Below are positions 31,734 to 63,078 of a DNA stretch of 64,000 nucleotides, one piece after another. The position numbers and the translations under genes were made by a program. The DNA lies in contig JAQTTZ010000010.1 in the NCBI GenBank assembly GCA_028710485.1, positions 1 to 64,000 of the forward strand. The letters are read 5' to 3'. Numbering within the stretch: position 1 is the first letter of the stretch; the number at the start of each line of letters is the position of its first letter. Below the pieces are notes generated by a model that did not search any database, was not told the DNA's origin, and saw only the letters and a list, made by a program, of their open reading frames with translations. The DNA comes from Bacteriovorax sp. GTDB lineage: Bacteria > Bdellovibrionota > Bacteriovoracia > Bacteriovoracales > Bacteriovoracaceae.

Positions 31734-31735
31734 AT

Positions 31736-32779: not shown

Positions 32780-34125
32780 TTTATGTAATTCCTTAAACCA
32801 GAGACAAATTCCCTGACTGATTTGTAGGAAATAACTTCGTTTTCAAAATATTTTTTTGCTTGTTCGCTCTCTTTCTCGCTGGCCTCAAGATGATTCAAAA
32901 TATTCATCAAATGCATTTTCATATGCCCTTTTTGAATACCGGAAGTGATCAGGGACCTCACTGCTGCAAAGTTTTGAGCAAGACCAATAGTGGCCACAAT
33001 TTGCATCAACTCAGGGGCCTTTGGTCTTCCAAGCATATTGAGAGAGAGTCTAGCTAATGGATGGAGTGAAGTAAGACCTCCAACCGTTCCAATCGCCAAA
33101 GGCATCTCTAAGCTAAAGCGGAATTTGCCATTTTCAAGACTCACATCACTGAGACCACGGTATTGTCCATCTCTGGCGGCATAGGCATGCCCACAAGCTT
33201 CAACTGCACGATAATCATTTCCGGTGGCCACCACCACGGCATCTATCCCGTTAAAAATTCCTTTATTATGAGTTGTCGCGCGAGTGATATCAACTTTTGA
33301 AATGCGGATGGCGCGAGCAAATTTTTCAGCGAATTCTTCCGCCGACATTCCTAAGCTTGGGTCATTCAAATCCGAAATATCGCATTCAACATAAGTTTTA
33401 ACTCGACAGTTAGGCGTATAGTTAGAAAGAATCGCCATGATAATTTGCAGATCTTTTTCTTCGTCTGTAAAATTTTTGGCAGTGGTCACGATCTCTTTAA
33501 ACTTTCTGCCGATTACCTCAAGGATTGAATTAATAAAATTCGCACCCATCGCATCGCAAGTTTCAAACTCAGCAAGCAGTTGGTAATAGCCTGGTTCATC
33601 GAGTGTTCTATCAATCAAGTTAAGAGAGATTATTCCCCCTCCACGCTTTTCCATATTATCAGTCAGAGATTTTGTGCTAGTGATAAGTTCATCTTTAATT
33701 TCATTAAAGAGGTCACACAACTTTGAAGTTTCGCCATTCCAGATGAAATGAACCTGGCCAATCTTAGTAGTAGAAATCACTTCGGCGTGAAAGCCTCCGC
33801 GAGTTAGCCAAAAATTAGCAGAGCGCGCACTGGCCGCAACCACCGAGCTCTCTTCAATGACCATAGGAACGCAGAGCAGTTCTCCATTTAACAAAATATT
33901 GGGAACTACGCCTAAGGGAAATAGAAAATTAGTTAATGTATTTTCACTGAATTCATCAATCGTTTTTTGAATTGTTTCATCGGCATGCCAGTATTTTTTA
34001 AACTGTCCGCGAGCGGCTTCGGAATCTGAAAAAAAATTTTTAACAACTAAATCAATTTTCTCAAATTTAGAAAGTTTTGAAAAACCTGACATTGGAGACA
34101 ATTGTTGGTTAGACGTATTTTTCAT
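32776..34125 (-). CDS. hydroxymethylglutaryl-CoA reductase (class II-like)
   Basis: ENTLTNFLFPLGVVPNILLNG, DAMGANFINSILE, THNKGIFNGIDAVVVATGNDYRAVEACGHAYAARDG, GTVGGLTSLHPLA. Confidence 0.94.
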   Translation of the reverse strand: MKNTSNQQLSPMSGFSKLSKFEKIDLVVKNFFSDSEAARGQFKKYWHADETIQKTIDEFSENTLTNFLFPLGVVPNILLNGELLCVPMVIEESSVVAASARSANFWLTRGGFHAEVISTTKIGQVHFIWNGETSKLCDLFNEIKDELITSTKSLTDNMEKRGGGIISLNLIDRTLDEPGYYQLLAEFETCDAMGANFINSILEVIGRKFKEIVTTAKNFTDEEKDLQIIMAILSNYTPNCRVKTYVECDISDLNDPSLGMSAEEFAEKFARAIRISKVDITRATTHNKGIFNGIDAVVVATGNDYRAVEACGHAYAARDGQYRGLSDVSLENGKFRFSLEMPLAIGTVGGLTSLHPLARLSLNMLGRPKAPELMQIVATIGLAQNFAAVRSLITSGIQKGHMKMHLMNILNHLEASEKESEQAKKYFENEVISYKSVREFVSGLRNYIK

Positions 34126-35159
34126 AGATAATCCTCATTCAATGCCTGAGAAGAATTTAGGGGTCTTGCCACTAAAAATACTTTTGCTATTTTAAGACCA
34201 TTGACTAGGCCTTCAGTAAACCTTTGAAGCTCTTTATAATCTTGTGCATGAGAGAGAAAGTTTTTCGCTTGCCCTATAACTGAAGTAAACATCAAATTTT
34301 CACGAAGAAAATATCCGTCGAGAATATTTTCAACACCTCCAGAAATGATAATTTGTTTCTGTTTATATTCGGGATGAGCTCTCAGCAGTAAGTTTAACAT
34401 TGAAACCATCTCGGGAGCAGTATGACCGACTTTAGACAGGGACTCCATCCAAACCCCTTCGCCTCTCATCTGCTCTAGCTTGGTAAAGTTTGTCCCACCA
34501 AAGGCCGCTAACTCAATGGCCTCAATCGGTAAATCCAAAAGTGCTTTTAAACTCTCGGGCCCAAAACCTTGACCAACTTCTTTCACAATGATTTTACTTT
34601 TAAAAAAATCGCACAGCTTCGCTAGAGTTTCTATTGGACTATTTTTAAGACGGTCCCCTTCAGGTTGAAACCATTCCTGAAGTGGATTGATATGAACGAC
34701 CAGGCCGTCGGCATCCAGGCGTGTAATCAGATCTGTAATTTTTTGATGTTTTCGCTCGGCAAGCAAGTTTTCAATTTGAGCGATTCCCAGATTGGCATAC
34801 AAGGGAAGATCGGGCCCTAGGATTGGGCGAAGATTAAAATCTTTGAAGTAAGTATCATCGTCTAGTAAAACTCTGCATGATCCAAGTCCCATTCCCAAAC
34901 CAAATTCATGGCATAAGCGGGCCAGGTTTTGATTGATATGCCGAGCGGGACCTACGCCGCCTGTCATACTTGAAACCCAAAGAGGCGCTTTAAGTTTTTT
35001 TCCTAAAAATAGGAGAGAAAGATCCGTTTCTTCATTGGGATGAGCAGACATTAAGGGCTCATAAAAAAAGCGATGGTCAACTTCCACGCGCTTGGTCTGG
35101 GCCGCGATCGCCAGATCAATATGATCCATTTTTCTAGTCTCTTGTATTACTCTTGGCAT
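34122..35159 (-). CDS. fni: type 2 isopentenyl-diphosphate delta-isomerase
   Basis: RKMDHIDLA, APLWVSSMTGGVGPARHINQNLARLCHEFGLGMGLGSCR, VKEVGQGFGPESLKALLDLPIEAIELAAFGGTNF. Confidence 0.94.
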   Translation of the reverse strand: MPRVIQETRKMDHIDLAIAAQTKRVEVDHRFFYEPLMSAHPNEETDLSLLFLGKKLKAPLWVSSMTGGVGPARHINQNLARLCHEFGLGMGLGSCRVLLDDDTYFKDFNLRPILGPDLPLYANLGIAQIENLLAERKHQKITDLITRLDADGLVVHINPLQEWFQPEGDRLKNSPIETLAKLCDFFKSKIIVKEVGQGFGPESLKALLDLPIEAIELAAFGGTNFTKLEQMRGEGVWMESLSKVGHTAPEMVSMLNLLLRAHPEYKQKQIIISGGVENILDGYFLRENLMFTSVIGQAKNFLSHAQDYKELQRFTEGLVNGLKIAKVFLVARPLNSSQALNEDYL

Positions 35160-48468: not shown

Positions 48469-48841
48469 TGGCGATGGTGTATTCCTTCTCAGTTATTTTA
48501 CTAACCAGGCCGGTCACTAACAATTCTTGAAAACAAGAGCTTGTTAATTTTTTTCCCATATCGTCCATCACTACACTATAAATTTTATCTTCAGTTTTAA
48601 AATCTAGTGAAACAACTTTTCCTTCTTTGGATCTCTCGCGAGGCCTGATCGTTCCAGAAAGTTGAACTAGTTTGTCTTTATAGAAATAATAGTTATCGCG
48701 ATTAAATCCCGATCCCTCTGCTTTATCTTTTTTACCTGAAGGTTTCCCTTCACCATCTTCATCAAATTCTTCATCTCCACCTTCGGTATCAGTATCAATT
48801 TCTTCATCACCATCTTCAAATTCGTCTTTGAATCCACCCAT
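48452..48841 (-). CDS. hypothetical protein with D/E-rich N-terminus
   Basis: 129 aa, MGGFKDEFEDGDEEIDTDTEGGDEEFDEDGEG then folded-looking C-terminus. Confidence 0.55.
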   Translation of the reverse strand: MGGFKDEFEDGDEEIDTDTEGGDEEFDEDGEGKPSGKKDKAEGSGFNRDNYYFYKDKLVQLSGTIRPRERSKEGKVVSLDFKTEDKIYSVVMDDMGKKLTSSCFQELLVTGLVSKITEKEYTIAIKTYI

Positions 48842-49010
48842 AAATAGGTATTCCCCTTAATAAATTACTTCTCTTTTTGGTTACAGTTATATCTTAGACT
48901 AAAAAATTCAGAATAATCACTAGAAAATCAACACTTTGGTGAAATTTTTAAGGTTTCTCCCAAACTCGGCAAGTGCTATACTGATATCAGGAACATGTAT
49001 GGAGGATTAT

Positions 49011-49229
49011 GTGCGCAAAATAAAATACTTATCTCATTTCTCTTATTTATTTATAATCGCTTTTATTGCGGTAATGGCGATAACAACACCTATAAGATCG
49101 ATGGCCCAAGACGATATGCCCAACGATGAGGAAACAATAATTCCTTCAAGCAATAATAGTGCGCCTCCGCCAATTATTGATGAAAGTGATTCTGGTGCAG
49201 TCAATGATGTTGAAGAATACGATGGCTAA
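49011..49229 (+). CDS. small secreted/membrane hypothetical protein
   Basis: GTG 49011 with GGAGG; hydrophobic signal, D/E/S-rich mature part; followed by terminator. Confidence 0.5.
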   Translation: MRKIKYLSHFSYLFIIAFIAVMAITTPIRSMAQDDMPNDEETIIPSSNNSAPPPIIDESDSGAVNDVEEYDG

Positions 49230-49245
49230 ATAACCCCATATGAAG

Positions 49246-49277
49246 GACCGGTGCCTAAACTTGCACCGGTCTTTTTA
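49246..49277 (+). terminator. intrinsic terminator
   Basis: gaccggtgc-ctaaactt-gcaccggtc followed by ttttt. Confidence 0.88.
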
Positions 49278-49284
49278 TTTAGGA

Positions 49285-49554
49285 TTAAGCTTTCTTAAAG
49301 GTCCCTTTCTTCTCTTTGCACACTTTTTCGGATGTTTTCAGCCATCCTTTTGCCTTGCATGCGTTAGTCCCAGCACAAGAATTTTTCTCGCTATGGCACG
49401 CTGACGTACCTTTACAAGAATTAATTCCATGGCATTGACCTTCGATCGCTTTTGCTTCTTGCTGAGGGGCGACTGCCTTTGCAACGTCGGCCGCTGTTGC
49501 CGATAGAGCTAATCCTGAAAGTGCTGCTGCTAGTAATAAATTTCTTGAGTCCAT
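49285..49554 (-). CDS. BufA2-type periplasmic bufferin-like Cys-rich protein
   Basis: Signal peptide; GQCHGINSCKGTSACHSEKNSCAGTNACKAKGWLKTSEKVCKEKKG; GGAGG RBS. Confidence 0.8.
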   Translation of the reverse strand: MDSRNLLLAAALSGLALSATAADVAKAVAPQQEAKAIEGQCHGINSCKGTSACHSEKNSCAGTNACKAKGWLKTSEKVCKEKKGTFKKA

Positions 49555-49674
49555 GAAACCTCCTAAAAGTTAGATTTTGTGATAATAATAACAAAGTTCT
49601 GGACATTCTAAACACAAATCGCAGATATTCTATTTATTATATTTTTGTAATACAAGATAATCAACAGGTGTCAT

Positions 49675-50313
49675 GTGTTTATTGAACCAGAGATTTTAAA
49701 AGAACTGCCGCATTTTGAAATGTTTTTTAATCGAATAGGTTTTAAGCGCATTGATGGATCAGTTTTTGGTCTTTTGGTCTTGGCCCAAAAGCCGCTGACT
49801 TCTGAAGAAATTGAAGAGGCCCTGAAGCTCTCTCAAAGTGCGGTGTCCCTTTCTCTTAAAACTCTCGCCCATTTTGGGGCGATTGAAACTAAAGACCTCA
49901 GAGAAAATTCGAAGGCCCGCGTTCATACAGCAAAAGAAGATTCTTTAAATATTGTAGCTTCGCTTTTTAGAAAGCGCGAAGAAGAATATATTGTCGATTT
50001 TAAACTGATGGCCCAAAGAGTATTAGATAAATCCAATGGTGCGGACAATTTAGCTCGCAAAAAACGCATGCAATCTATCATCAGCACTTGCGAGATAGCA
50101 GAATCAGTCATGAACTTCGTTATCACAATAGCTCAAAATAAATCGAGAGAAAATCACGAACAATATGCCGCTCAATACGAAGCGATCGTAAAGCGATTGC
50201 CAAAGGCGCTGGATTTGATTGCCACTACGGCCGGTCCGTTAGCTGATATGACAATAAGCTTAAAAGAAACTTTAACCACAACATTTAAAAATAATTTTAA
50301 AGGACTACGCTGA
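49675..50313 (+). CDS. GbsR/MarR-like HTH transcriptional regulator
   Basis: FNRIGFKRIDGSVFGLLVLAQKPLTSEEIEEALKLSQSAVSLSLKTLAHFGAIETKD; GTG start. Confidence 0.8.
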   Translation: MFIEPEILKELPHFEMFFNRIGFKRIDGSVFGLLVLAQKPLTSEEIEEALKLSQSAVSLSLKTLAHFGAIETKDLRENSKARVHTAKEDSLNIVASLFRKREEEYIVDFKLMAQRVLDKSNGADNLARKKRMQSIISTCEIAESVMNFVITIAQNKSRENHEQYAAQYEAIVKRLPKALDLIATTAGPLADMTISLKETLTTTFKNNFKGLR

Positions 50314-50314
50314 A

Positions 50315-51568
50315 ATGAAACCAGAGAATTGCAAAGACACTCAAAGAATTGTTATTACCGGTATCGGTCTCACTTCCCCAATGGGAAATAATTTATCAGA
50401 ATTTAGAGATGGTCTTTTAAATAATGGCTCGGGAATTACCCATACCGAAATTCGCCATATGGGCGTGGTCGCGGCCGGACTTTGTAAATTCGATGAAGCC
50501 CGCTACCAGCCTAAAAAAATGAGAAGACGTGGAACTCGCGCTGGTGCTATTTCAATTTATTGTGCCAATGAAGCCGTTGTTGATTCAGGAATTGATTTTG
50601 CTGGCGTCGATAAGAATCGAGTGGGAGTTTATCTCGGAATTACAGAACACGGAAACGTTGAAACAGAAAACGAAATCCACGATCTCTATAACGAGCATAA
50701 AATGGATGTGTCGTTATGGTCCCATCACCATAACCCCAGAACAGTGGCCAATAATCCAGCAGGAGAAGTCACTCTTAATATGGGAATCACGGGAGCTCAT
50801 TATACTATCGGCGCCGCTTGTGCCGCTGGAAATTTAGGCATTATCCAAGGAGTGCAGCAACTTTTATTAGACGAAGTTGATATTGCTCTCGCCGGTGGAG
50901 TTTCTGAATCTACTGAAACTTTTGGAATTTTTGCGGCCTTCAAGGCCCAAGGTGCTCTTGGTCACCATGAAGATCCAGCTCTGGCCACTCGCCCACTTGA
51001 TGTCAATAGAAATGGAATTGTCGTTTCTGAAGGTGGTGCGGTTTATGTATTAGAGCGATTAAGTGATGCGAAAAAAAGAAAGGCAAAAATTTACGGAGAA
51101 ATTATAGGGTATCACAGCAATAGTGATGCCAGCGATTTCGTTCTTCCCAATACAGAACGCCAAATTGAATGTATAAGAATGGCCATAAAAAAAGCAGGCA
51201 TCGAGATTAACGAAATTGATATTGTTAATATGCACGCCACAGGAACAGTTCTAGGAGATATTCAAGAATGTGATGCTGTTCAAAAACTTTTTGGTGAATG
51301 CCCAAACGTATACGTGAATGCCACTAAAGGATTTATCGGTCACGCCATGGGAGCGGCCGGAGCACTGGAACTAGCAGGAAATATTCCTTCGTTTACTGAT
51401 GGTTATATTCACCCTTGTAAGAAAATAGAAAACCTCGATCCCCTATGTAGCGTTCGCAATTTAGTCAACGGCGAGAAAGTCGCTCGCGATGTAAAAATCA
51501 TATTAAATAATTCTTTCGGAATGCTCGGAATAAATTCAACGTTAATTGTGCAAAAGTTTAAGGAGTAG
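50315..51568 (+). CDS. beta-ketoacyl-ACP synthase (FabF/KAS II-like)
   Basis: Catalytic Cys TIGAACAAGNLG, His NMHATGTVLGD and GHAMGAAGALE. Confidence 0.92.
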   Translation: MKPENCKDTQRIVITGIGLTSPMGNNLSEFRDGLLNNGSGITHTEIRHMGVVAAGLCKFDEARYQPKKMRRRGTRAGAISIYCANEAVVDSGIDFAGVDKNRVGVYLGITEHGNVETENEIHDLYNEHKMDVSLWSHHHNPRTVANNPAGEVTLNMGITGAHYTIGAACAAGNLGIIQGVQQLLLDEVDIALAGGVSESTETFGIFAAFKAQGALGHHEDPALATRPLDVNRNGIVVSEGGAVYVLERLSDAKKRKAKIYGEIIGYHSNSDASDFVLPNTERQIECIRMAIKKAGIEINEIDIVNMHATGTVLGDIQECDAVQKLFGECPNVYVNATKGFIGHAMGAAGALELAGNIPSFTDGYIHPCKKIENLDPLCSVRNLVNGEKVARDVKIILNNSFGMLGINSTLIVQKFKE

Positions 51569-51570
51569 TT

Positions 51571-51822
51571 ATGCTAACAAATGAAGAAGTAAGATCAAAA
51601 GTTTTAGATATTATTGCAGATATCGCTCTTGATGATGATGTATCAAACTTGAAAGATGAAGTTGCGTTGAGAGAACAACTTGACCTGGATTCAATGGACT
51701 TTTTAGACATCGTAATGGAATTAAAAAAACGTCATAAGATTGAAGTTCCTCAAGAAGACTACAGTCGTCTGGTGTCTATGCAGTCTTGTGTTGAATATCT
51801 TGCACCAAAATTCAACGCTTAA
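51571..51822 (+). CDS. acyl carrier protein
   Basis: 83 aa acidic; phosphopantetheine site LDLDSMDFLDIVMEL. Confidence 0.93.
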   Translation: MLTNEEVRSKVLDIIADIALDDDVSNLKDEVALREQLDLDSMDFLDIVMELKKRHKIEVPQEDYSRLVSMQSCVEYLAPKFNA

Positions 51823-51827
51823 TTAAA

Positions 51828-53240
51828 ATGGCCAAATACGATTGCGTAATTATCGGAGCTGGAATGTCAGGCCTTGCGGCCGGCATCCGGCTCTCGATGT
51901 ATAACAAAAAAGTAGTGATTCTCGAAAAACACACTATTAGCGGTGGACTCAATTCCTATTATGCCCGTGGAAAAAGAAAATTTGATGTTGGACTTCATGC
52001 TCTAACCAATTTTATCGATCCCACAGAGCGAGGAAAACCTTTTAATAAATTGATGAAACAACTGCGCATTCCTTATGATCAGTTTAAACTTCATCCGCAA
52101 AATTATTCGGTCATTCAGTTTCCTGATAAAAAATTGAAATTTACCAATGATATTGATTTTTTAATTGAAGAAGTTAGAATCAATTTCCCCCACGAAATTG
52201 ATGGGTTCATGAGTCTGCTTAATCATATTCAGAATTTTAATGAAGTTGATTTGTCTAATAAAATGGCCATGGCAAAAATTGTTGTGAAAAACTTCATTAA
52301 AGATGAATCTCTCATTGAAATGATATTTTGCCCCCTTTTGATTTACGGAAGTGCCTGGGAAAACGATATGGATTTTTCTCAGTTTGTGGTTATGTTTAAA
52401 AGTATTTTCCTTGAAGGATTTTCTCGCCCCGAAGGTGGAGTGAGAACAATTATTGATTTGCTTTTAAAAAGATTTGAAGAATGTGGAGGAGAGCTTCGTT
52501 TCAAATCTGAGGTGACCCGGATTATTTCGGCCAATGCTCAAGTGTCTGCTGTTGAAATTAACGGAAATGAAATTATTGAATGTGATAATATCCTCTCATC
52601 AATGGGGTTGCCTGAAACAATATCGGTTTTGGATCAGGATTCTGCTTACTCGCCACGAGTTGGAAATCTCTCTTTTACTGAAAGTATTTTGATTACTGAT
52701 AAAAAGCCAAAAGATCTGGGAATAGATGCAACTATTATTTTTTATAATAATCGTCCTGAGTACCATTACCAAAAACCAAAGACTATTTTTGATAGTGAGA
52801 GTGCTGTGGTTTGTTTTCCCAATAACTTCTTATATGGATCCCATGGGGACGACTACAACGAAGGAGTTCTCCGAGTGACAAATATTGCGAATTTTGAATT
52901 ATGGAATAAGCAAAAACTAATATCGCTTGAGGCCTATAAAGAAAGCAAAATGGAAGTTTTTAATCAAAGTCTTCGCATTTTAAAAAATTGTGGTCTTGGA
53001 TCTAATGATTCAAATTATGAAATTCTTTTTAAAGATATTTTTACTCCCACTACAATCAAGCGCTATACCGGTCATTTCGGTGGAACGGTTTATGGATCTA
53101 TCGATAAAACCAGAAACGGAACAACTGATATTGGCGGTCTGTTTATCTGTGGAACTGACCAGGGATTCTTAGGAATTGTGGGCTCTATACTTTCTGGAAT
53201 TTCCATGGCCAATCTTCATATCCTATCGAGTAATTTATGA
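51828..53240 (+). CDS. NAD(P)/FAD-dependent oxidoreductase, phytoene desaturase (CrtI) / retinol saturase-like
   Basis: CVIIGAGMSGLAAGIRLSMYNKKVVILEKHTISGGLNSYYARGKRKFDVGLHAL; C-terminal GGLFICGTDQGFLGIVGSILSG. Confidence 0.85.
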   Translation: MAKYDCVIIGAGMSGLAAGIRLSMYNKKVVILEKHTISGGLNSYYARGKRKFDVGLHALTNFIDPTERGKPFNKLMKQLRIPYDQFKLHPQNYSVIQFPDKKLKFTNDIDFLIEEVRINFPHEIDGFMSLLNHIQNFNEVDLSNKMAMAKIVVKNFIKDESLIEMIFCPLLIYGSAWENDMDFSQFVVMFKSIFLEGFSRPEGGVRTIIDLLLKRFEECGGELRFKSEVTRIISANAQVSAVEINGNEIIECDNILSSMGLPETISVLDQDSAYSPRVGNLSFTESILITDKKPKDLGIDATIIFYNNRPEYHYQKPKTIFDSESAVVCFPNNFLYGSHGDDYNEGVLRVTNIANFELWNKQKLISLEAYKESKMEVFNQSLRILKNCGLGSNDSNYEILFKDIFTPTTIKRYTGHFGGTVYGSIDKTRNGTTDIGGLFICGTDQGFLGIVGSILSGISMANLHILSSNL

Positions 53241-54268
53241 AATTTAATAATGTAGTCATTGAATCTTTTGCTTATTCGATCTCTGAGCAACTGATGACTT
53301 CTAATATGATTGAAGAAGCTCTTGCTCCTCTTTATCAAAAACTAAAACTTCCGGAAGGAAGATTGGAGTTGATGACAGGCATTCAGTCCCGGCGAGTGTG
53401 GCCATCAGGGACTAAACCAAGTGACTTATCAACTCTGGCCTCCGAAAAATTATTTTTAAAATCTAATATAAAAAAAACAGACATCGATCTTTTGATTCAC
53501 GCTTCTGTATGTCGAGATTTTTTAGAACCAGCAACTGCCTCTGTCGTTCACGCTAATCTAGGCCTTCCTCGTAAAACAATGATTTTTGATTTATCCAATG
53601 CTTGTTTGGGTGTGATCAATGCCATCGTCGTTGCAGGAAATATGATTGATAATGGACAAATTAAAACGGCCTTGATTGTTTCAGGTGAAAACGGCGGGCC
53701 TCTAATTGAAAATACGATTCGTGAATTATTGAGCAATCCCAATATTGATCGCAAGAGTATTAAAAAATACATCGCCAATTTAACGATTGGTTCTGCGGCC
53801 ACTGCTATACTTCTGACTCATCGGGATTGTGCACCATCCGGCCATACTATTTTAGGTGGTGCTGTTGAGACAGATTCAAGTGCCAATCATCTTTGCAGAG
53901 GAGATGGCAATACTCACTCCCTCGTGATGCAAACAGATTCAGAAGAATTATTAAAATATGGCGTGATCCTGGCCAAGTCAACCTGGCAGGGTCTTTTGAC
54001 TGAACTTGCCTGGGATAATAATACTCCGGATTTAGTTCTCACTCATCAAGTGGGTACGGCCCATGAAAAACTATCGTTAGAGTCCTTAGAGTTAACTCAC
54101 GTTAAGACCTTTAGAACTTATCCCTTCCTTGGCAATACAGGATCGAGTGCACTCCCTATCACACTAATGATGGCCCATGAAGATGGAAAAATTAAAAAGG
54201 GTGAAAAAGTTGCATTGCTTGGAATTGGTTCTGGATTAAGTTCAATCATGCTGGGAGTAGAGTGGTAA
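53237..54268 (+). CDS. oleA: OleA-like beta-ketoacid-forming thiolase-fold synthase (KAS III-like)
   Basis: LMTGIQSRRVWPSGTKPS, catalytic Cys LSNACLGVINAI, LTHQVGTAHEK, FLGNTGSSALP; position before OleB/C/D. Confidence 0.85.
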   Translation: MKFNNVVIESFAYSISEQLMTSNMIEEALAPLYQKLKLPEGRLELMTGIQSRRVWPSGTKPSDLSTLASEKLFLKSNIKKTDIDLLIHASVCRDFLEPATASVVHANLGLPRKTMIFDLSNACLGVINAIVVAGNMIDNGQIKTALIVSGENGGPLIENTIRELLSNPNIDRKSIKKYIANLTIGSAATAILLTHRDCAPSGHTILGGAVETDSSANHLCRGDGNTHSLVMQTDSEELLKYGVILAKSTWQGLLTELAWDNNTPDLVLTHQVGTAHEKLSLESLELTHVKTFRTYPFLGNTGSSALPITLMMAHEDGKIKKGEKVALLGIGSGLSSIMLGVEW

Positions 54269-55158
54269 TGAGTACACAAAATAATATGCAAAAAATGATT
54301 ACGATACCCGCCGAATTAAAAGGGGAATACCCTTTTGATTCTCATTTTATGCCGATTCAAAATAATAATTTACACTATATAGACGTGGGAAGCGGGCAAA
54401 CCATTCTTATGCTTCATGGAAACCCAACCTGGTCATTTTTTTATCGCAATCTTGCCAAGCATTTTTCAAAAGATTTTCGAGTGGTTGTTCCTGATCATAT
54501 GGGTTGTGGACTTTCGAGCAAACCACAAGACTATGAGTACACATTAAAAACTCATATTGAAAATCTTTGCTTGTTAGTTGAAAAATTAAATTTATCCGAC
54601 ATCACCTTGGTCGTTCACGATTGGGGAGGGGCCATTGGAATGGGCCTCGCGACAAGATATCCTCATCTTATTAAAAAAATGGTAGTGATGAACACCGCGG
54701 CCTTTAGGTCGATGGAAATTCCGGCACGAATAAATATTTTAAAAAATCCAATTGGCCAGTGGTTTATAAGATCGTTTAATGGTTTTGCTGGTCCCGCGAC
54801 TTTTATGGCCACCACCAAAGGACTTAGTCCTCTGGTCAAAAAAGGATTCACACTTCCCTATCATGATTATGAATCAAGAATTGCCACCGCAAAATTTGTT
54901 CAAGATATTCCAATGAATGATACTCATCCTACTTATCAGACACTAAAAGATATTGAAGAAAAACTCCCAACGATCAAAGCTCCAATACTTCTTCTTTGGG
55001 GAGAAAAAGATTTTTGTTTCACCATGAACTTTCAAAAGCGCTGGTTAAATATTTTTCCAAATGCCAAGTCCATCACTTACCCGGAAGCAGGACACTACTT
55101 AATTGAGGACGAGAAGTCCGCAGTCATTAGCGAGATCGAAAAATTTTTAAAGGAATAA
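54268..55158 (+). CDS. oleB: OleB-like alpha/beta hydrolase (haloalkane dehalogenase fold; beta-lactone decarboxylase)
   Basis: LHGNPTWSFFYRNL, Asp nucleophile elbow VVHDWGGAIGMG, PEAGHYLIED. Confidence 0.85.
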   Translation: MSTQNNMQKMITIPAELKGEYPFDSHFMPIQNNNLHYIDVGSGQTILMLHGNPTWSFFYRNLAKHFSKDFRVVVPDHMGCGLSSKPQDYEYTLKTHIENLCLLVEKLNLSDITLVVHDWGGAIGMGLATRYPHLIKKMVVMNTAAFRSMEIPARINILKNPIGQWFIRSFNGFAGPATFMATTKGLSPLVKKGFTLPYHDYESRIATAKFVQDIPMNDTHPTYQTLKDIEEKLPTIKAPILLLWGEKDFCFTMNFQKRWLNIFPNAKSITYPEAGHYLIEDEKSAVISEIEKFLKE

Positions 55159-55162
55159 TTTA

Positions 55163-56809
55163 GTGAATATTTCTTCTCGACTAACGGTGAACGCCAAGGC
55201 CACTCCCGATAAAAAGGCAGTGGTTTTCCCCCGTTTTAATAAAAAAACCAAACGCTATGATTATAGCTCTTTAACTTTTAAAGAGCTTGATATTCTCTCA
55301 AACAAATATGCCTTACAACTTCAAAAGCTTGGATTAAAAAAAGGCGACAGGACTCTCCTATTCTTAAAACCAAGTCTCGATTTTTCGGCGATGACCTTTG
55401 CTTTATTTAAGTTAGGAGTTGTTCCCGTCTTTATCGATCCGGGAATGGGAATTTCAAATCTTCTTAAATGTATCAAAGAATCACGGCCCGTAGGTCTGAT
55501 TGCCGAAAAACAAATTCACTTTCTTAAACTTTTTTATCCTGATGTTTTTAAAACGGTAAAGATGAATATCACGAATGGATCATTGACCTGGGGAAAAATG
55601 ATCAGCATTAAAAAGATGAAAAAGGAAAAGGTTCAAAGCTTTAGTCCCGTTGAATTTGACCCCGAAGATACAGCGGCCATTCTTTTTACTTCAGGTGGGA
55701 CAGGCACTCCAAAGGGTGTGGTCTATACTCATAATATTTTCGATCAACAAACAACTATGCTGCAAGATCTTTATAAATTAACTAAGAATGATATTGATAT
55801 GCCCGGTTTTCCTCTTTTTTCTCTTTTTACAATTGCAATGGGTATGACTAGTTGTATCCCGGACATGGATCCTACCAAGCCTGGAAGCTGTGACCCAAAA
55901 AAATTAGTACAAAATATCTACGATCAGTCCCCTACCTTTGTCGCTGGATCTCCCGCAATTTGGGAGAGAGTGGCCGACTACTGTTTGGAGGAAGGATTAG
56001 TTTTACCAACAATAAAATATGTCGTCATGTTTGGAGCACCTGTTTCAGTTAAACTTCATCGCAAATTTAAAACTCTATTGCCCAACGGAACCACTTATAC
56101 ACCTTACGGTGCGACAGAAGCTCTCCCTGTCAGTAATATTTCCGGTGAATTTGTTTTAAAAAATACCGCCCAACTAACTGATGAGGGTCATGGAACTTGT
56201 ATTGGACAAGCGGCCCCCGGTGTAGAAATAAAAATAATTAAAATTACGGATGATGTGATTTCTCGCTTCAATGAAAATTTAGAACTACCACTCAAAGAAG
56301 TTGGCGAGATTATCATTAAAGGCCCCGTTGCCTCCAGAGAGTATTTAAATCTTCCAGATAAAACTCGCGAAGCTAAAATCTACGACGTGAATGATACTTT
56401 TTGGCATCGTATGGGAGATTTAGGATTCATCGACGAGAATGGACTTTTATGGTTTTGCGGACGAAAAGCTCATATGGTAACCACTAAAACTCAAAAACTT
56501 TTTCCTATTCCTTGTGAAGCTATTTTTAATAAGCACCCTGCAGTTAAAAGATCGGCACTCGTGGGCCTTGGAGTTCCCGGTAACCAAATCCCGGCAATCG
56601 TAATTGAGCGCCGTGATGGCCAATACCTATCAGGTAAAGGACGCTCTATTTTTGAAAGTGAGCTTCTTTCTGTAGCGAAAAAATATCCACATACTAAAAA
56701 CATTCAAAAAATATATTTGAGTAAATCTTTTCCCGTAGATGTTAGACATAATATCAAAATCGACCGATTAAAATTAAAAGAAGAAATTGAACATCATGAA
56801 ATCAACTAA
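55163..56809 (+). CDS. oleC: OleC-like AMP-dependent ligase family beta-lactone synthetase
   Basis: AILFTSGGTGTPKGVVYTHNIFDQQ, TYTPYGATEALPVS, WHRMGDLGFIDENGLLWFCGRKAHMV. Confidence 0.87.
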   Translation: MNISSRLTVNAKATPDKKAVVFPRFNKKTKRYDYSSLTFKELDILSNKYALQLQKLGLKKGDRTLLFLKPSLDFSAMTFALFKLGVVPVFIDPGMGISNLLKCIKESRPVGLIAEKQIHFLKLFYPDVFKTVKMNITNGSLTWGKMISIKKMKKEKVQSFSPVEFDPEDTAAILFTSGGTGTPKGVVYTHNIFDQQTTMLQDLYKLTKNDIDMPGFPLFSLFTIAMGMTSCIPDMDPTKPGSCDPKKLVQNIYDQSPTFVAGSPAIWERVADYCLEEGLVLPTIKYVVMFGAPVSVKLHRKFKTLLPNGTTYTPYGATEALPVSNISGEFVLKNTAQLTDEGHGTCIGQAAPGVEIKIIKITDDVISRFNENLELPLKEVGEIIIKGPVASREYLNLPDKTREAKIYDVNDTFWHRMGDLGFIDENGLLWFCGRKAHMVTTKTQKLFPIPCEAIFNKHPAVKRSALVGLGVPGNQIPAIVIERRDGQYLSGKGRSIFESELLSVAKKYPHTKNIQKIYLSKSFPVDVRHNIKIDRLKLKEEIEHHEIN

Positions 56810-57797
56810 AGTTTTAATTACTGGTGCTGGCGGCTTTCTCGGAAGTTATATTGCCCGGGAATTGATTAAAAAAAATTACCAGGTTTTTAGTTTTTCAAGA
56901 TCTGAGTATTCTTTTTTGGGTGAGCTTGGAGTTAGTCAACGTTTGGGTGATTTGAAAAATTATCATGATGTTAAAAATGCCCTAAATGGAATGGATGCTG
57001 TTATTCATACTGCTTCGATGGTTGGTATGTGGGGGCGCTATGAAGATTTTTTTGCCACCAATGTGACGGGGACGGAAAATGTTTTGAGGGCGATGAAAGA
57101 GCTTGGGATTCGCAAGTTAGTTTATACGAGTACACCGAGTGTTGTTTTTGGGAGAGAGAGTTTGTGTGGAGTGGATGAGACGACGCCTTATCCGGAGCAC
57201 TATCTTACTTATTATGCAAAGACTAAGGCCATTGCGGAGAAGATGGTACTGAGGGCAAATCAGGACCTCGATGTGAATGGTTTGTGTGCGGTTGCTTTGC
57301 GACCGCACTTAATCTTTGGACCGGGTGACATGAATCTGGTGCCTCGAGTGATTGAGGCCCAAAAAAAGGGTCGTTTAAAAATCATTGGAGATGGGGAAAA
57401 TTTAGTTGATGTCCTCTATGTGGAAAATGCAGCGGCAGCTCATGTCATGGCCCTTGAAAAATTAGAATTCAATCACCCTATTGCAGGACATGCTTATTTT
57501 TTAGGGCAAGGACCAATCAAATTATGGGATTTTACCAATACGATTTTAACTAAGGCCGGGCATCCGATTGTCACAAAAAAAATGACTCTCAAAAAAGCTT
57601 ATGCCATCGGATTTATGATTGAGTGCTTTTTAAAATTTTTCCGCATCTATAATGTCCATCCACCCATGACAAGATTTGTGGCCTTGCAGTTAGCAAAATC
57701 TCACTATTTTAGTCATCATAATCTTGAAGCGGACTTGGGATATGGCCCGAGTATTTCTATTGAAGAAGGCATAAATAGATTATTCGCATCTAAATAA
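56796..57797 (+). CDS. oleD: OleD-like NAD(P)-dependent 2-alkyl-3-ketoacid reductase (SDR/3beta-HSD-like)
   Basis: VLITGAGGFLGSYIARELIKKNYQV, TSTPSVVFG, YAKTKAIAEKMV, GDGENLVDVLYVENAAAAHVMALE. Confidence 0.87.
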   Translation: MKSTKVLITGAGGFLGSYIARELIKKNYQVFSFSRSEYSFLGELGVSQRLGDLKNYHDVKNALNGMDAVIHTASMVGMWGRYEDFFATNVTGTENVLRAMKELGIRKLVYTSTPSVVFGRESLCGVDETTPYPEHYLTYYAKTKAIAEKMVLRANQDLDVNGLCAVALRPHLIFGPGDMNLVPRVIEAQKKGRLKIIGDGENLVDVLYVENAAAAHVMALEKLEFNHPIAGHAYFLGQGPIKLWDFTNTILTKAGHPIVTKKMTLKKAYAIGFMIECFLKFFRIYNVHPPMTRFVALQLAKSHYFSHHNLEADLGYGPSISIEEGINRLFASK

Positions 57798-57857
57798 AAA
57801 AATCGTTCGGTTTTATAAGCTTATTGTGAGTGTGATTAAAGGCCTGAAGAAAACCAA

Positions 57858-59963
57858 CTACTGATCAACAACAACAGAAGCTGGAGAGCGAAGGTTTTCA
57901 AGTCGCATATAATGGTCAACTGCTCCTAAACCTTTGAAAGCTCCTTCATGAAAGCTTGTGGTAAAATCATGGCCATCAGGAGTTACCGCATTAAAATTGC
58001 CGTAGAAGAAAACATTCTGAACACCAAAAAGATTATAGTAATGAACCTTGCTGTTTGAATTATTCACAATATTATTGGTTAAGTTTTTCAAAGGCCATAG
58101 TGGAATTTCTACCCAATCGGCCTTGTCTTTAAAAGTCATTTGAGAAAGACATTGTTTTAAGAAGGCCCGAGACTTCGATGCAGAAAAAATATACTTCCTC
58201 GACTTAGACTCACAGGCATTGATGGTATCGGCAGTTATTTTTTCATGTGAGAGGTCTTTGAAATATTCAATATAATCATTTTGCAAAGAACGGCGACAGT
58301 TATCAAAAAGATTTCTAAAATTAAAAAACTTTGATTTTGGGTACTCGTCACATAATCCATTAATATGATCAAAAACATCACCCACGCTCAATGAATTTAA
58401 ATAACGTATTCCTTCAGTGTTGACCTGGTACTGGCCAGTGATAGAAAATGGAGCGATCAAATATTCATTTTGAACCAAATCTACGGCCAATGGATCAATT
58501 CCAGAGTAACGTTCAAGAATAAAGACAGCGCGGTCGCGGTATTTTTTTCCAAAAGTACCTTTGCTTTTTTTCGTTGTGAATTCCGCACTGAAAGTCATAG
58601 AGAGTTTTTGTTCATTGTCTAAAATATTCAAATCCTCATGATTTTCCAGAAGATTTCTTTCACTGTCATATTCGATGGTAACTTTTTTGCTATCACTGGC
58701 CATTTTAGCAGCACTCGCTTCAGAGTTAGTAATGGCATAAATAACGCTCGCAAAAAGTCTAGAAACTATATCTTCAGTGTACTTAACTTTTTCATAATAA
58801 TGTCTGAAGAAAACTTTTACTCGTCCATCGGTTGTGACTTCTATCTGTTGAGTTTTTGAACTTTTACTTCCTCCCAAAAGAAGGAAATTGTATTTGTGTT
58901 CAATTGTTTGGGCAATTTTCTTTTCTTCGGAAATAATATAAGGAGCAAGTATCCTTAAATCCCCTTCGCGGTTTTTAAGAAGTTGTCCAATTTCATCTGC
59001 AACAGGATTTCCTGGAACCATTTCACGTAAATTATTTTGATTAAAATTTAAATATATTTTGTAGCTTGTTGCTAGGTCATAACTAAAATCATAAGAAAGA
59101 AGAGTAAATTTTAGAATTTTTAAAAAGTCGGCCTGTATTCCAACGGAGACACCTGCCATTACCATTTTAGTTTTTTCATAAGACATATGAACATCGTCGC
59201 CAACGCCTGTCTTACTTGGACTTGAAACGACTTCTACTCTTGATAATTTTTCAAACTTGGCCAGCACTCCGGCCATCCCTGATATTCCGGTATAGAGAGG
59301 AACGGAAACCATGCCTCCGGCCTTTACTGAGAGAGAGTCTTCTTTAAAAACCATCTCATTGGTTTGCATATTTGAGATTTTATTAAATTGAAGAGCATTA
59401 AAAGGTAAAAATAATTTTTCGAAATGAGTAGTAAGTCCTTCATTGTAAGAATCGGCGTAATGGACCCAGGTATAAGTTCGTTTAAAAACAATTCCCGCAA
59501 ATGCCGCAAGGTTATTTTGAGTTATATCGATAACTTTTTGGTCTTTAAGATTGCTCATTATTTTTGAAGCATCAATGAAAATGGAGAATGTATCTGTAAC
59601 GATCCAGCGTTTAGCATCAAACAAGTCGGGAGCAAGGTTTCTGTCAGCACTGATTGAAAAATCGACAAAGGGCCTTCTATAAGAGAACCCAATACTATTT
59701 AGACCACCTGTTACTGAAGTTGTACCATTTTGAAGTACTCTCCCCGCTTCTCTTTGTCCGATATGATCATATTCTAAATTCATCTCATCAAGAATCTGTT
59801 GATAGAGATTACTTTTAGTTTCGATTGGATTAACTATATTTAAATAGTTAAACGATGAATTAGAATTAGGAGCGGATTGAGCGTGAACACTTGAAAATAC
59901 TCCGAGAGAACATAGCGTGGCGATTGTGCAAATTTTTCTGAATTTTATTTTCATATTGATCAT
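57858..59963 (-). CDS. large secreted hypothetical protein
   Basis: 701 aa with signal peptide; no family recognised. Confidence 0.6.
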   Translation of the reverse strand: MINMKIKFRKICTIATLCSLGVFSSVHAQSAPNSNSSFNYLNIVNPIETKSNLYQQILDEMNLEYDHIGQREAGRVLQNGTTSVTGGLNSIGFSYRRPFVDFSISADRNLAPDLFDAKRWIVTDTFSIFIDASKIMSNLKDQKVIDITQNNLAAFAGIVFKRTYTWVHYADSYNEGLTTHFEKLFLPFNALQFNKISNMQTNEMVFKEDSLSVKAGGMVSVPLYTGISGMAGVLAKFEKLSRVEVVSSPSKTGVGDDVHMSYEKTKMVMAGVSVGIQADFLKILKFTLLSYDFSYDLATSYKIYLNFNQNNLREMVPGNPVADEIGQLLKNREGDLRILAPYIISEEKKIAQTIEHKYNFLLLGGSKSSKTQQIEVTTDGRVKVFFRHYYEKVKYTEDIVSRLFASVIYAITNSEASAAKMASDSKKVTIEYDSERNLLENHEDLNILDNEQKLSMTFSAEFTTKKSKGTFGKKYRDRAVFILERYSGIDPLAVDLVQNEYLIAPFSITGQYQVNTEGIRYLNSLSVGDVFDHINGLCDEYPKSKFFNFRNLFDNCRRSLQNDYIEYFKDLSHEKITADTINACESKSRKYIFSASKSRAFLKQCLSQMTFKDKADWVEIPLWPLKNLTNNIVNNSNSKVHYYNLFGVQNVFFYGNFNAVTPDGHDFTTSFHEGAFKGLGAVDHYMRLENLRSPASVVVDQ

Positions 59964-60109
59964 TGCCTCTGAACGCCATTATGACAGACTCATCGGCAGG
60001 ACAAAGGCAATACTTGACTGTTTTGGTATTAATTACTTAGCTCTAAAAAATTTTAGGTAAAGTGCCATAAATATTCCTCATTGAAACCCAAGCTGTTAGA
60101 ATAGTTATT

Positions 60110-60928
60110 ATGAAAGGGACACGTCTTATAATTTTGATCTTATCGATTCTTCTATTAACAATTAGTAGTGGGCTCTTATTTTATAAGAACCTATTTCTTC
60201 TTGAATCCCCCACCACTGGCGGCAAAGTTGATTTTGAAGAACTTCGCTATACCGATCTGCAGATTAATGCGTCAGCGGCAATGCTGAGAAAAAATTTAAG
60301 TGCCGATTCAACGCTGCTGGAATCGGAAGTCTCGCGCATTAAAGAATTAATGAATATTGTAACTGATGTTAACAAAAGTACTCCGGAACTCAGTAACTCA
60401 ATCACAAAAATCCGTTTGTATTTTGATAAAAAAATAAGAGATTTGGATAATTTTCAAACGGGACTGATCGAATTAAAAAAAGCCGTAGACGCTCTCAATC
60501 CCGCCTATAATGAATTAAATCGAAACAAAATAAAATTCTCGCTAGATAATAGAGATTTTTACCGCGAGTGTGTAGTGGACGCACTTTTCTATATTTCGCT
60601 ATCCAATAAGGATAATGAAGCCCGTCTTAGTGAAGATAAAAAAATTCTTGGCCAAATCCTAAGTTTTGCCAAAGCACCAAATCCTTATATTCAAAAGTTT
60701 AGCGTTTATATCGATATCATTTTAAAGCGAACCAAAGAGATTGACCACTTGACTGAAAATTTTAATAAAGACATTTCAATAAATAATGAATTGATGATTG
60801 TTGGTAAATACTATAAGGAATCTCAAGATGCGAAGGTTCATGATGGAGAAGTTTTTCTTTCCATGATTTTTGGCGCTATCGTCCTGTACTTAATTGCAGT
60901 GGTAGTCATTTTGAGAAAACTTACTTAG
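60110..60928 (+). CDS. two-TM protein with all-helical extracytoplasmic domain (DAHL-like sensor module, tentative)
   Basis: N-terminal TM, ~210 aa helical region, C-terminal TM then stop (VVVILRKLT). Confidence 0.5.
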   Translation: MKGTRLIILILSILLLTISSGLLFYKNLFLLESPTTGGKVDFEELRYTDLQINASAAMLRKNLSADSTLLESEVSRIKELMNIVTDVNKSTPELSNSITKIRLYFDKKIRDLDNFQTGLIELKKAVDALNPAYNELNRNKIKFSLDNRDFYRECVVDALFYISLSNKDNEARLSEDKKILGQILSFAKAPNPYIQKFSVYIDIILKRTKEIDHLTENFNKDISINNELMIVGKYYKESQDAKVHDGEVFLSMIFGAIVLYLIAVVVILRKLT

Positions 60929-61722
60929 GACTGACGAGAATAGGCCGCAACCACTTTTTCATCAAAATAATTTGCACTCATCCCCGCATCCACCAAGACA
61001 CCACTTGCATTGATCCCACTAGAGCGCTGACTCAAGAGAAAGGCCACGGTATTGGCAACTTCAGATGTCTCGAGGGCCTGTCTTCTCATAGTAAGTTGTT
61101 CAGCATAGAGATAATTTTCAATATAACCCGGAATTCCCGCTGAAGCCGAAGTCTTTAATGGACCCGCGCAAACAGCATTAAAACGAACCGAGCTGATGCT
61201 TGAAAAAGATTTGGCAAGGAATGCAATAGTAGCGTCCAGAGAGGCCTTAATAGGTCCCATATAGCCGTAATTGGTGGCGCGAGTACTGGAGATAGAAATG
61301 GTAACCACTGAAGCATGAGGGTCTAGGATATCTTTAATAGCATTTGAGATGGCGATTAATGAGAAAGTTGAGATAGTAGAAGCTTGAAGATAATCTTGTA
61401 GTTTTGTTTCATGAAATGGTTTCATGCCTTCTGAGTAGTTGGCAAAGGCAATCGAGTGTAAAAAACCGTGTAGCTTTACTCCATCAGTTTTGAGCTGTTC
61501 ACCAAACACTTTAATAGCTGCTTCATTTTCTACGTTTAGCAGATAAATCTTTTTTTCTGGAAAAAGTTTTTCAACTCTCTCTTTAATTTCTGCATTTTGA
61601 ACTGTGAAAATTAAATCGGCCCCGTTTTCTTGTAAGATTTTTGCGGAAAAATAGGCGACAGATTTTTTATTGGCCACACCAGTAATCAAAAACGTTTTAT
61701 TTTCTAAATCAAGAAAGCTCAT
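60925..61722 (-). CDS. fabI: enoyl-ACP reductase FabI-like (SDR)
   Basis: FLITGVANKKSVAYFSAKILQENGADL, HSIAFANYSEGMKPF, TNYGYMGPIKASLDATI, NAVCAGPLKTSASAGI. Confidence 0.85.
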   Translation of the reverse strand: MSFLDLENKTFLITGVANKKSVAYFSAKILQENGADLIFTVQNAEIKERVEKLFPEKKIYLLNVENEAAIKVFGEQLKTDGVKLHGFLHSIAFANYSEGMKPFHETKLQDYLQASTISTFSLIAISNAIKDILDPHASVVTISISSTRATNYGYMGPIKASLDATIAFLAKSFSSISSVRFNAVCAGPLKTSASAGIPGYIENYLYAEQLTMRRQALETSEVANTVAFLLSQRSSGINASGVLVDAGMSANYFDEKVVAAYSRQS

Positions 61723-61742
61723 TTTTCAAATCCTCATAATTT

Positions 61743-62150
61743 TTAAATACTGGCGACTGCAAACTCGAGAACTAAAACGACTTTGCCATTAACTCTTGTT
61801 GTCCCTTTCATATAACTGGCATTTGAAAGGCTATCAACTAGCTCGACTTCCATTTCTAATGTTTCCCCGGGACGAACCATATTTTTGAATTTAGCATTTT
61901 GGACTCTGGTGACAACTCCTAATCCTCCGCCTGCTTTCTTGGCCATCAACGCCGCTCCCGATTGAAAAAGAGCTTCTTGTAAAAGAACTCCTGGCATGAT
62001 GGGGTTTCCGGGAAAATGACCTTTAAAAAAATCTTCTTCGCCAGTAAGGTGGAGAGATGTAGAGATCTTTTTTTCATCGAGATTAATAATCTTATCGACA
62101 AATAAAAATGGTGCTCGCTGAGGAATGAGATCTTTGATGTCTGGAAACAT
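61743..62150 (-). CDS. fabZ: 3-hydroxyacyl-ACP dehydratase FabZ
   Basis: IPQRAPFLFVDKI, FFKGHFPGNPIMPGVLLQEALFQ, FKNMVRPGETLEMEVEL. Confidence 0.93.
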   Translation of the reverse strand: MFPDIKDLIPQRAPFLFVDKIINLDEKKISTSLHLTGEEDFFKGHFPGNPIMPGVLLQEALFQSGAALMAKKAGGGLGVVTRVQNAKFKNMVRPGETLEMEVELVDSLSNASYMKGTTRVNGKVVLVLEFAVASI

Positions 62151-62152
62151 TT

Positions 62153-62890
62153 TTATAGGCCCCCTGAAATTTCAAGACTTGCTCCAGTGATATAGCTAGC
62201 TTCTTTACTTGCTAAAAATAAAACTGCAGCTGCCACTTCTTCAACTCGTCCGAAACGTTTCATCGGAACGTCTTTCATATACTCTTTACGTTGATCTTCC
62301 GGAAGATCTGCCAAAAGTTCTGTGTCGATAAATCCAGGACAAATATTATTGACAGTGATACCGCGCTTGGCGACTTCTTTGGAAAGGGACTTCGAAATAG
62401 CAATTTGTCCGGCCTTTGAAGCAGCGTAGTTGGCCTGCCCGGGAAGCCCCAAAGATCCACCAATGGAAGACATATTGACAATGCGACCGTAGCGATTTTT
62501 CATGAACTGCAGGACTGCATGTTTGCTCATTAAAAATGTTCCAGTGAGGTTGGTGCTGATGACATCATTCCACTCGATTAGAGACATCATGGCCGTTAGT
62601 TGGTCTTTTCTGATACCAGAATTATTGATCAGTATTTCTATTTTAGGATGTGCTGCTTCGACTTCAGCAAAAAATTTTATGATGGCGTCTTCATCTCTGA
62701 CATCGCATTTTTTGACGATAAGTTTTTCACCGTACTGAAGACAATCTTCTTTGAATTTCATGGCAGCTGCATCGTTTCCGGCGTAGATAGCAACGACAGT
62801 GGCACCTTCTTTCAAAAAAGCCTCTGCGATTCCTCTGCCAATTCCACGCGTTCCACCTGTAACTATCGCTGTTTGATTTTCAAACTTCAT
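62153..62890 (-). CDS. fabG: 3-oxoacyl-ACP reductase FabG
   Basis: AIVTGGTRGIGRGIAEAFLKEGA, ILINNSGIRKDQL, VNMSSIGGSLGLPGQANYAASKAGQIAISKSLSKEVAKRGITVN, ITGASLEISGG. Confidence 0.93.
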   Translation of the reverse strand: MKFENQTAIVTGGTRGIGRGIAEAFLKEGATVVAIYAGNDAAAMKFKEDCLQYGEKLIVKKCDVRDEDAIIKFFAEVEAAHPKIEILINNSGIRKDQLTAMMSLIEWNDVISTNLTGTFLMSKHAVLQFMKNRYGRIVNMSSIGGSLGLPGQANYAASKAGQIAISKSLSKEVAKRGITVNNICPGFIDTELLADLPEDQRKEYMKDVPMKRFGRVEEVAAAVLFLASKEASYITGASLEISGGL

Positions 62891-63078
62891 TTAATATAAT
62901 CCTGTCTATGGGGTAATCAGACGGAATTCTATAGGGAGAAATGGGGTTTGAGAAGATGGAATTGAGCCGTTGCAATGAGTTTGTTATGTGTCATTCGACT
63001 CCGGCGAGCGATACGTGTCCCTAAGGACACTGTCGATAGCATAATATAATTATTTAGGAATCAAATTGTCGTCTTTTA

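Follow-up and report, generated by a model that had tools for sequence, protein, structure and literature searches.

A dedicated acyl-supply module that probably feeds OleABCD in Bacteriovorax, and a possible Pfa-independent route to polyunsaturated hydrocarbons

What is the role of a ketoacyl-ACP synthase (KAS), an acyl carrier protein (ACP) and a CrtI-like flavoprotein that are encoded directly in front of an OleABCD cluster? The question is raised by a locus in a 64,000-nt (64-kb) stretch of Bacteriovorax sp. DNA, the whole of which is termed the window here. In the Ole pathway, two acyl thioesters are joined by OleA, after which OleD, OleC and OleB complete the olefin. An earlier note on this DNA proposed that the three additional proteins supply a dedicated, modified acyl chain to the Ole enzymes. 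Comparisons between genomes support such a role well: the flavoprotein, termed FX1, appears to belong to a larger module with its own FabG, FabZ and FabI, FX1 co-occurs with OleA, Planctomycetota with OleA nearly always have either FX1 or PfaA, and many genera in several phyla keep the gene order. We further infer, with confidence that falls a little short of even, a polyunsaturated product, made by a Pfa-independent route in which FX1 and a paralogue, FX2, act as isomerases.

Eight genes lie on the forward strand between positions 49675 and 57797, spaced by 1–5 bp or joined by start/stop overlaps (ATGA at 53237, TAATG at 54268 and 14 bp at 56796), as had been described. The first gene (49675..50313) encodes a winged-helix transcriptional regulator of 212 amino acids. 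It had been termed GbsR/MarR-like; the family matches are weak (TrmB/ArsR/GbsR-like), with Pfam TrmB/HTH_5 at about the cut-off. The gene directly precedes that of the KAS in Bdellovibrionota, and also at loci L096, L105 and L110 of Planctomycetota. The KAS (50315..51568) is FabF-like (PF00109/PF02801) and scores 283.6 bits with the fabF model TIGR03150, under the cut-off of 493.75. Its catalytic Cys (GAACAAGN) and two His residues (MHATGT and KGFIGHAMGAAG), read from the sequence, are intact. The ACP (51571..51822; 83 amino acids; PF00550) carries the phosphopantetheine site DSMD. FX1 (51828..53240; 470 amino acids) is a CrtI/CrtISO-like flavin adenine dinucleotide (FAD) flavoprotein by its top NCBIfam match, TIGR02730, and by family alignments.

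The four Ole enzymes follow. OleA (53237..54268), the head-to-head acyl condensing thiolase, scores 415.5 bits with NF006720 (cut-off 285); a full-length alignment to Xanthomonas campestris OleA (3ROW) has the catalytic Cys, Glu, His and Asn all kept. OleB (54268..55158), a beta-lactone decarboxylase of the alpha/beta hydrolase type, matches PF00561 with 107.8 bits and has the nucleophile motif HDWGG. Its nearest NCBIfam models are those of haloalkane dehalogenases and an OleB-specific model was not among the matches; its place between OleA and OleC is conserved. OleC (55163..56809), the beta-lactone synthetase, scores 624 bits with NF006754 (cut-off 478), and 507 and 460 bits with the lineage-specific OlefBLtnSyn models, both under their cut-offs. 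OleD (56796..57797), the 2-alkyl-3-oxoalkanoate reductase, is a short-chain dehydrogenase/reductase with the motif YYAKTK; its top matches, NF042423 and NF042422, give 349.9 and 343 bits, under the cut-off of 580. The identities proposed for the four enzymes hold, with profile matches over the cut-off for OleA and OleC and with intact active-site motifs.

The seven enzyme and carrier genes listed in the earlier note are real, but the list was incomplete, as three genes located 3 kb downstream on the reverse strand had been overlooked. These encode a FabI-like enoyl-ACP reductase (60925..61722; 265 amino acids; NCBIfam FabI models up to 171 bits), a FabZ-like 3-hydroxyacyl-ACP dehydratase (61743..62150; 135 amino acids; NF000582 with 116.1 bits, over the cut-off of 113) and a FabG-like 3-oxoacyl-ACP reductase (62153..62890; 245 amino acids; NF009466 with 258 bits, cut-off 222, and TIGR01830 with 287.7 bits). 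The dehydratase carries the FabZ-type Glu within LLQEALFQ. Two genes without a Pfam or NCBIfam match lie between OleD and this block (57858-59963, reverse strand, 701 amino acids; 60110-60928, forward strand, 272 amino acids), and both recur at this place in close relatives only.

Eighty loci were found with an FX1 profile, and their open reading frames (ORFs) were clustered into recurrent families. Four additional families recur: FX2, which is a second CrtI-like protein, FabG (cluster c9), FabZ (c10) and FabI (c8, present in 34 of the 80 loci). The FX module therefore consists of KAS, ACP, FX1, FX2, FabG, FabZ and FabI, and six of the seven are within the window. KAS, ACP and FX1 are adjacent in 63 loci. 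The order KAS-ACP-FX1-OleA-OleB recurs in the relatives that were fetched, which argues that the arrangement is more than chance; the conservation of synteny that the earlier note had proposed as a check is thus found. The pairwise distances calculated for different members of the module are correlated (r 0.52-0.92), and none of 500 permutations gave values as high. The KAS of the window is about 60-90% identical to module KAS proteins of other genera and phyla, and its ACP is 46-95% identical to those in module loci. The nearest named relative, Bacteriovorax sp. LF-bin-345 (L036), is 83% identical across window bases 48535-62996, and its FX2 gene is found ~4 kb past FabG. Among 97 relatives, FX2 is present in 47, i.e. 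in every FX1-bearing genome other than the present one, plus one more (G007). FX1 and FX2 occur together in 46, and each occurs alone in one genome.

Are the KAS and ACP simply the housekeeping proteins of this bacterium? Of FabF-type KAS proteins, the genome has only two that are convincing, alongside five matches to the ACP domain. The other FabF is encoded on a separate contig (C191), where its neighbours are an ACP, a FabG and a FabH-like gene. It shares 32% identity with the window KAS, and the ACP on that contig is 31% identical to the window ACP. A housekeeping role of the window copies, which had been named as a possible refutation, is thereby ruled out. A housekeeping FabZ is also present.

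FX1 and OleA are coupled. Both occur in 46 of the 97 relatives, which is 46 of the 47 that have FX1; the one with FX1 and no OleA is G045. OleA without FX1 is found in four relatives, all of another family. Among 395 Planctomycetota genomes, FX1 is present in 98 and OleA in 152, with 96 in common. Bacterial polyunsaturated chains are mostly ascribed to the Pfa synthase, and the two systems appear complementary in this phylum. The 146 Planctomycetota with a strong OleA comprise 95 with FX1 only, 49 with PfaA only, one with both and one with neither. The one with both (G303) has a PfaA-scoring gene that is weak (647 bits, under the cut-off of 1010) and may encode another polyketide synthase.

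The following pathway is proposed. KAS would condense, FabG reduce, FabZ dehydrate and FabI reduce, all on the dedicated ACP, with malonyl-ACP drawn from the housekeeping pool. FX1, plus FX2 in relatives, would insert cis double bonds, or keep them, in selected cycles, and the finished chain would be polyunsaturated, plausibly 16:4. OleA would then join two chains head to head, OleD would reduce the product, OleC would make the beta-lactone and OleB would decarboxylate it to the olefin. Two 16:4 chains would give a polyunsaturated hydrocarbon of the C31:9/C31:8 kind. In Shewanella, OleA uses Pfa intermediates to give 31:9 (PMC6463001), and C31:9 is thought to derive from two 16:4 n-3 chains (PMC4882568). 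The earlier note had left the product as polyunsaturated or conjugated; the complementarity with Pfa favours the former, and nothing speaks for the conjugated alternative in particular.

If the chain is polyunsaturated, which enzyme forms its cis bonds? Profile matches in the host genome revealed no FabA-type dehydratase-isomerase and no PfaA, and both PF07977 proteins, that of the module and the housekeeping one, are FabZ-type with Glu. Neither known isomerising dehydratase is therefore present, and another enzyme would have to make the cis bonds. FX1 and FX2 are the only enzymes without another role and thus are candidates. DH-FabA domains of Pfa synthases form cis bonds by 2,2- and 2,3-isomerisation (PMC9702510), and the FX pair would similarly perform trans-2 to cis-3 and trans-2 to cis-2 isomerisations. 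A methylene-interrupted chain needs two kinds of isomerisation and two flavoproteins are found, a match that is suggestive only. The assignment of the two proteins as these isomerases is possible, and is held with somewhat less confidence than the polyunsaturated product route as a whole.

FX1 scores 87 bits with the carotenoid isomerase model TIGR02730, its best NCBIfam match (cut-off 586.9), and FX2 scores 92-125 bits with carotenoid-family models, likewise under cut-off. Both are so far below the cut-offs of characterised families that family membership does not fix their chemistry. AlphaFold2 models (mean predicted local distance difference test scores of 88.8 for FX1 and 85.8 for FX2) have 4rep as top match in the PDB, with the CrtI structure 4dgk second for FX1, and the two proteins are predicted to share the CrtI-type FAD-binding fold. 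The closest solved folds are those of carotenoid desaturases (4rep, 4dgk and 5mog). This raises the question of whether FX1 and FX2 are oxidative desaturases that act on saturated or monounsaturated acyl-ACP to give methylene-interrupted or conjugated polyenes, with the supply role of the module unchanged. Rattray 2009 proposed an oxidative insertion, and polyunsaturated hydrocarbons were isotopically similar to monounsaturated fatty acids (PMC2649909). On the other hand, the best family match is an isomerase model, and desaturation of a preformed chain would leave no need for a dedicated FabG/FabZ/FabI cycle. Anaerobic hosts such as Smithella and Dehalococcoidia would also need an electron sink, although quinones could serve. 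CRTI with reduced FAD acts as a cis-trans isomerase anaerobically (PMC3382138). Oxidative desaturation is the strongest alternative, and is somewhat less likely than isomerisation.

A second alternative is that the module makes a dedicated chain that is not polyunsaturated, but is branched, mono-unsaturated or length-controlled, with FX1 and FX2 as saturases or enzymes of a single modification and an ordinary olefin as the product. The distant family scores leave room for this, the CrtI superfamily also contains saturases, and bare OleABCD clusters without a supply module exist. However, two conserved flavoproteins and a full fatty acid synthesis cycle exceed the needs of one modification, and in Planctomycetota FX1 is complementary to PfaA, which belongs to a known polyunsaturated-chain synthase. 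In addition, C31:8 and C31:9 are products of Desulfotalea psychrophila, a bacterium that is without Pfa and carries three phytoene-dehydrogenase-like genes (PMC2649909). A chain of this other type is thus unlikely.

Several observations weigh against a polyunsaturated supply by the FX module. The PfaA call in Planctomycetota (E<1e-130) was picked after a gap in the values had been seen. In the OleA tree, 23 of 24 Pfa-linked planctomycete rows fall into one fully supported clade; the complementarity therefore represents about two evolutionary events, and the Fisher p (about 1e-32 to 1e-36) overstates it. A forecast for Bdellovibrionota, set beforehand, was that FX1-positive genomes would be without PfaA and that the four with OleA and no FX1 would have it. 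The first half held, as no FX1-positive genome has PfaA, but the second failed: these four are also without PfaA, and the best PfaA score among the relatives is 348.5 bits versus the cut-off of 1010. Three of the four were inspected (G061, G069 and G089; loci L250-L252) and are small genomes with a compact, bare OleABCD, which suggests that ole genes can also use the ordinary acyl pool. OleA was not seen near the module in Nitrospinota and Verrucomicrobiota loci, and there the chain may have other fates. Lastly, FX2 was not found in the present assembly by a genome search in which 16 of 19 candidates were scored; with 234 contigs and 8% estimated contamination, its absence is not proven. Should the pathway depend on FX2, it might be incomplete in this bacterium, or else the assembly might be broken. 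A location of FX2 just past the window end was ruled out, since the contig (C218) continues to 69031 without FX2 and synteny with LF-bin-345 ends at 62996. Past this point, just upstream of FabG, are response-regulator and tail-fibre-like ORFs (to 64000, and on the contig to 69031). The break in synteny could be a rearrangement or a misassembly of the metagenome-assembled genome (MAG).

The modules without a nearby OleA might also suggest that KAS, ACP and FX1 are a separate lipid operon that happens to be beside the ole genes, with no common product. Three observations make this very improbable. In the window, the FX1 and OleA genes share the four bases ATGA. OleABCD sits between the two halves of the module at loci L050 and L082, of Smithella and Halobacteriovorax, in the single-strand order KAS-ACP-FX1-OleA-OleB-OleC-OleD-FX2-FabG-FabZ-FabI. 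In Planctomycetota the two genes are often far apart (in G155, FX1 is at 2.71 Mb and OleA at 0.03 Mb) and still co-occur, so that their coupling is independent of linkage. Weakest of all, a ladderane-like pathway is next to excluded. Anammox clusters likewise combine FabF, ACP and FabZ with phytoene-desaturase-like genes (PMC2649909 and PMC4790861), but anammox-type genomes, defined by hydrazine synthase, reach at most 135 bits with the FX1 profile and 165 with that of FX2, compared with within-family scores of 738-824 and 841-892. Their homologues stand at roughly the distance that separates FX1 and FX2, and orthology is ruled out by these profile scores. The recurrent module neighbours that were inspected included no radical S-adenosylmethionine (SAM) gene. 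Four hydrazine-synthase-positive Planctomycetota without OleA (G229, G260, G156 and G213) have PfaA-like multidomain genes of about 2800 amino acids, which score 802-828 bits, below the PfaA cut-off.

The module is found in Bdellovibrionota, Thermodesulfobacteriota, Planctomycetota, Chloroflexota, Nitrospinota, Nitrospirota and Verrucomicrobiota, in both aerobic and anaerobic lineages. It is also present in records labelled Myxococcota or Pseudomonadota, although part of this labelling is loose naming of MAGs. In the OleA tree, Smithella/Syntrophaceae are nested within Bdellovibrionota beside Halobacteriovorax L082, which suggests transfer between phyla. Nine Nitrospinota loci (L089-L091, L101, L104, L107, L108, L113 and L114) have KAS-ACP-FX1-FX2-FabG-FabZ-FabI with no ole gene nearby, and nitrite oxidisers might thus have a polyunsaturated lipid pathway that works by itself; by inspection, the Nitrospina genes upstream of KAS resemble an ordinary housekeeping block. 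In four Chloroflexota loci (L080, L081, L092 and L100) OleA is beside the module and OleB, OleC and OleD are absent from the stretches covered, and these loci could yield a ketone or a beta-keto acid in place of an olefin. Four of the Chloroflexota loci carry a phosphopantetheinyl transferase gene after FabI, a likeness to Pfa systems, where this is the function of PfaE. Elsewhere in the window, a mevalonate-pathway cluster is on the reverse strand (29769-35159), with genes for a GHMP kinase, diphosphomevalonate decarboxylase, a GYDIA-family GHMP kinase, HMG-CoA reductase and type 2 isopentenyl diphosphate isomerase.

How does the locus compare with known systems? It has the same four enzymes as the canonical oleABCD of Xanthomonas and the bare OleABCD of Bdellovibrionota. 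Those clusters are without adjacent KAS, ACP, flavoprotein and FabG/FabZ/FabI genes and presumably use the ordinary acyl pool. The earlier statement that canonical ole loci lack the KAS, ACP and CrtI-like genes is consistent with the bare clusters and with published gene contexts (PMC7064751). FX1 shares superfamily, fold and FAD-binding motif with CrtI phytoene desaturase and the carotenoid isomerase CrtISO. It differs in its low family scores and its location in a fatty-acid operon, in a cluster that has no carotenoid genes.

A precedent is the proposal by Rattray 2009 of an anaerobic polyunsaturated route from type II fatty acid synthesis and phytoene-desaturase-like genes common to Kuenenia and D. 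psychrophila (PMC2649909). The clusters described there resemble the FX module in having FabF paralogues, ACP and CrtI-like flavoproteins together. The shared cluster differs in its radical SAM and coenzyme A ligase genes, and a link to ole genes is not described in the accessible text. The anammox flavoproteins are not orthologues of FX1 and FX2, in line with a separate function. The adjacent D. psychrophila pair DP2405/DP2406 could, by adjacency, represent FX1 and FX2. What is new here is the definition of the module, the finding that it is fused with OleABCD, the range of bacteria that have it and, in Planctomycetota, the near absence of genomes with both the module and Pfa. No description of a KAS-ACP-FX-FabGZI module with oleABCD was found in the open-access literature, which was the scope of the search, with subscription papers and preprints outside it. 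The locus offers a concrete candidate gene set, small enough for expression in Escherichia coli, for the Pfa-less C31:9/C31:8 pathway that has been a puzzle since 2009 (PMC2649909). If the reading is correct, FX1 and FX2 would be two enzymes that together place cis double bonds on ACP-bound chains without O2.

The FX module is probably a second, undescribed way to polyunsaturated chains. In its wider form, this proposal is of a dissociated type II synthase, with a CrtI-like pair as cis-forming isomerases, that took the place of Pfa in supplying OleABCD, in Bdellovibrionota and many Planctomycetota as well as in other phyla, and that might make polyunsaturated lipids in the absence of OleABCD in Nitrospinota and Verrucomicrobiota; we regard it as nearly, not quite, an even prospect. 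The systems of Shewanella and Geobacter, in which Pfa and OleABCD give C31:9 (hentriacontanonaene), are similar in having OleABCD downstream, a dedicated acyl supply and presumably a similar product. They differ in that Pfa is a multidomain synthase, PfaA-D with DH-FabA domains, whereas the module is a dissociated type II set with a FabZ-type dehydratase and CrtI-like flavoproteins. By analogy, and in the reading preferred here, the FX module would probably do the job that the Pfa synthase performs in Shewanella.

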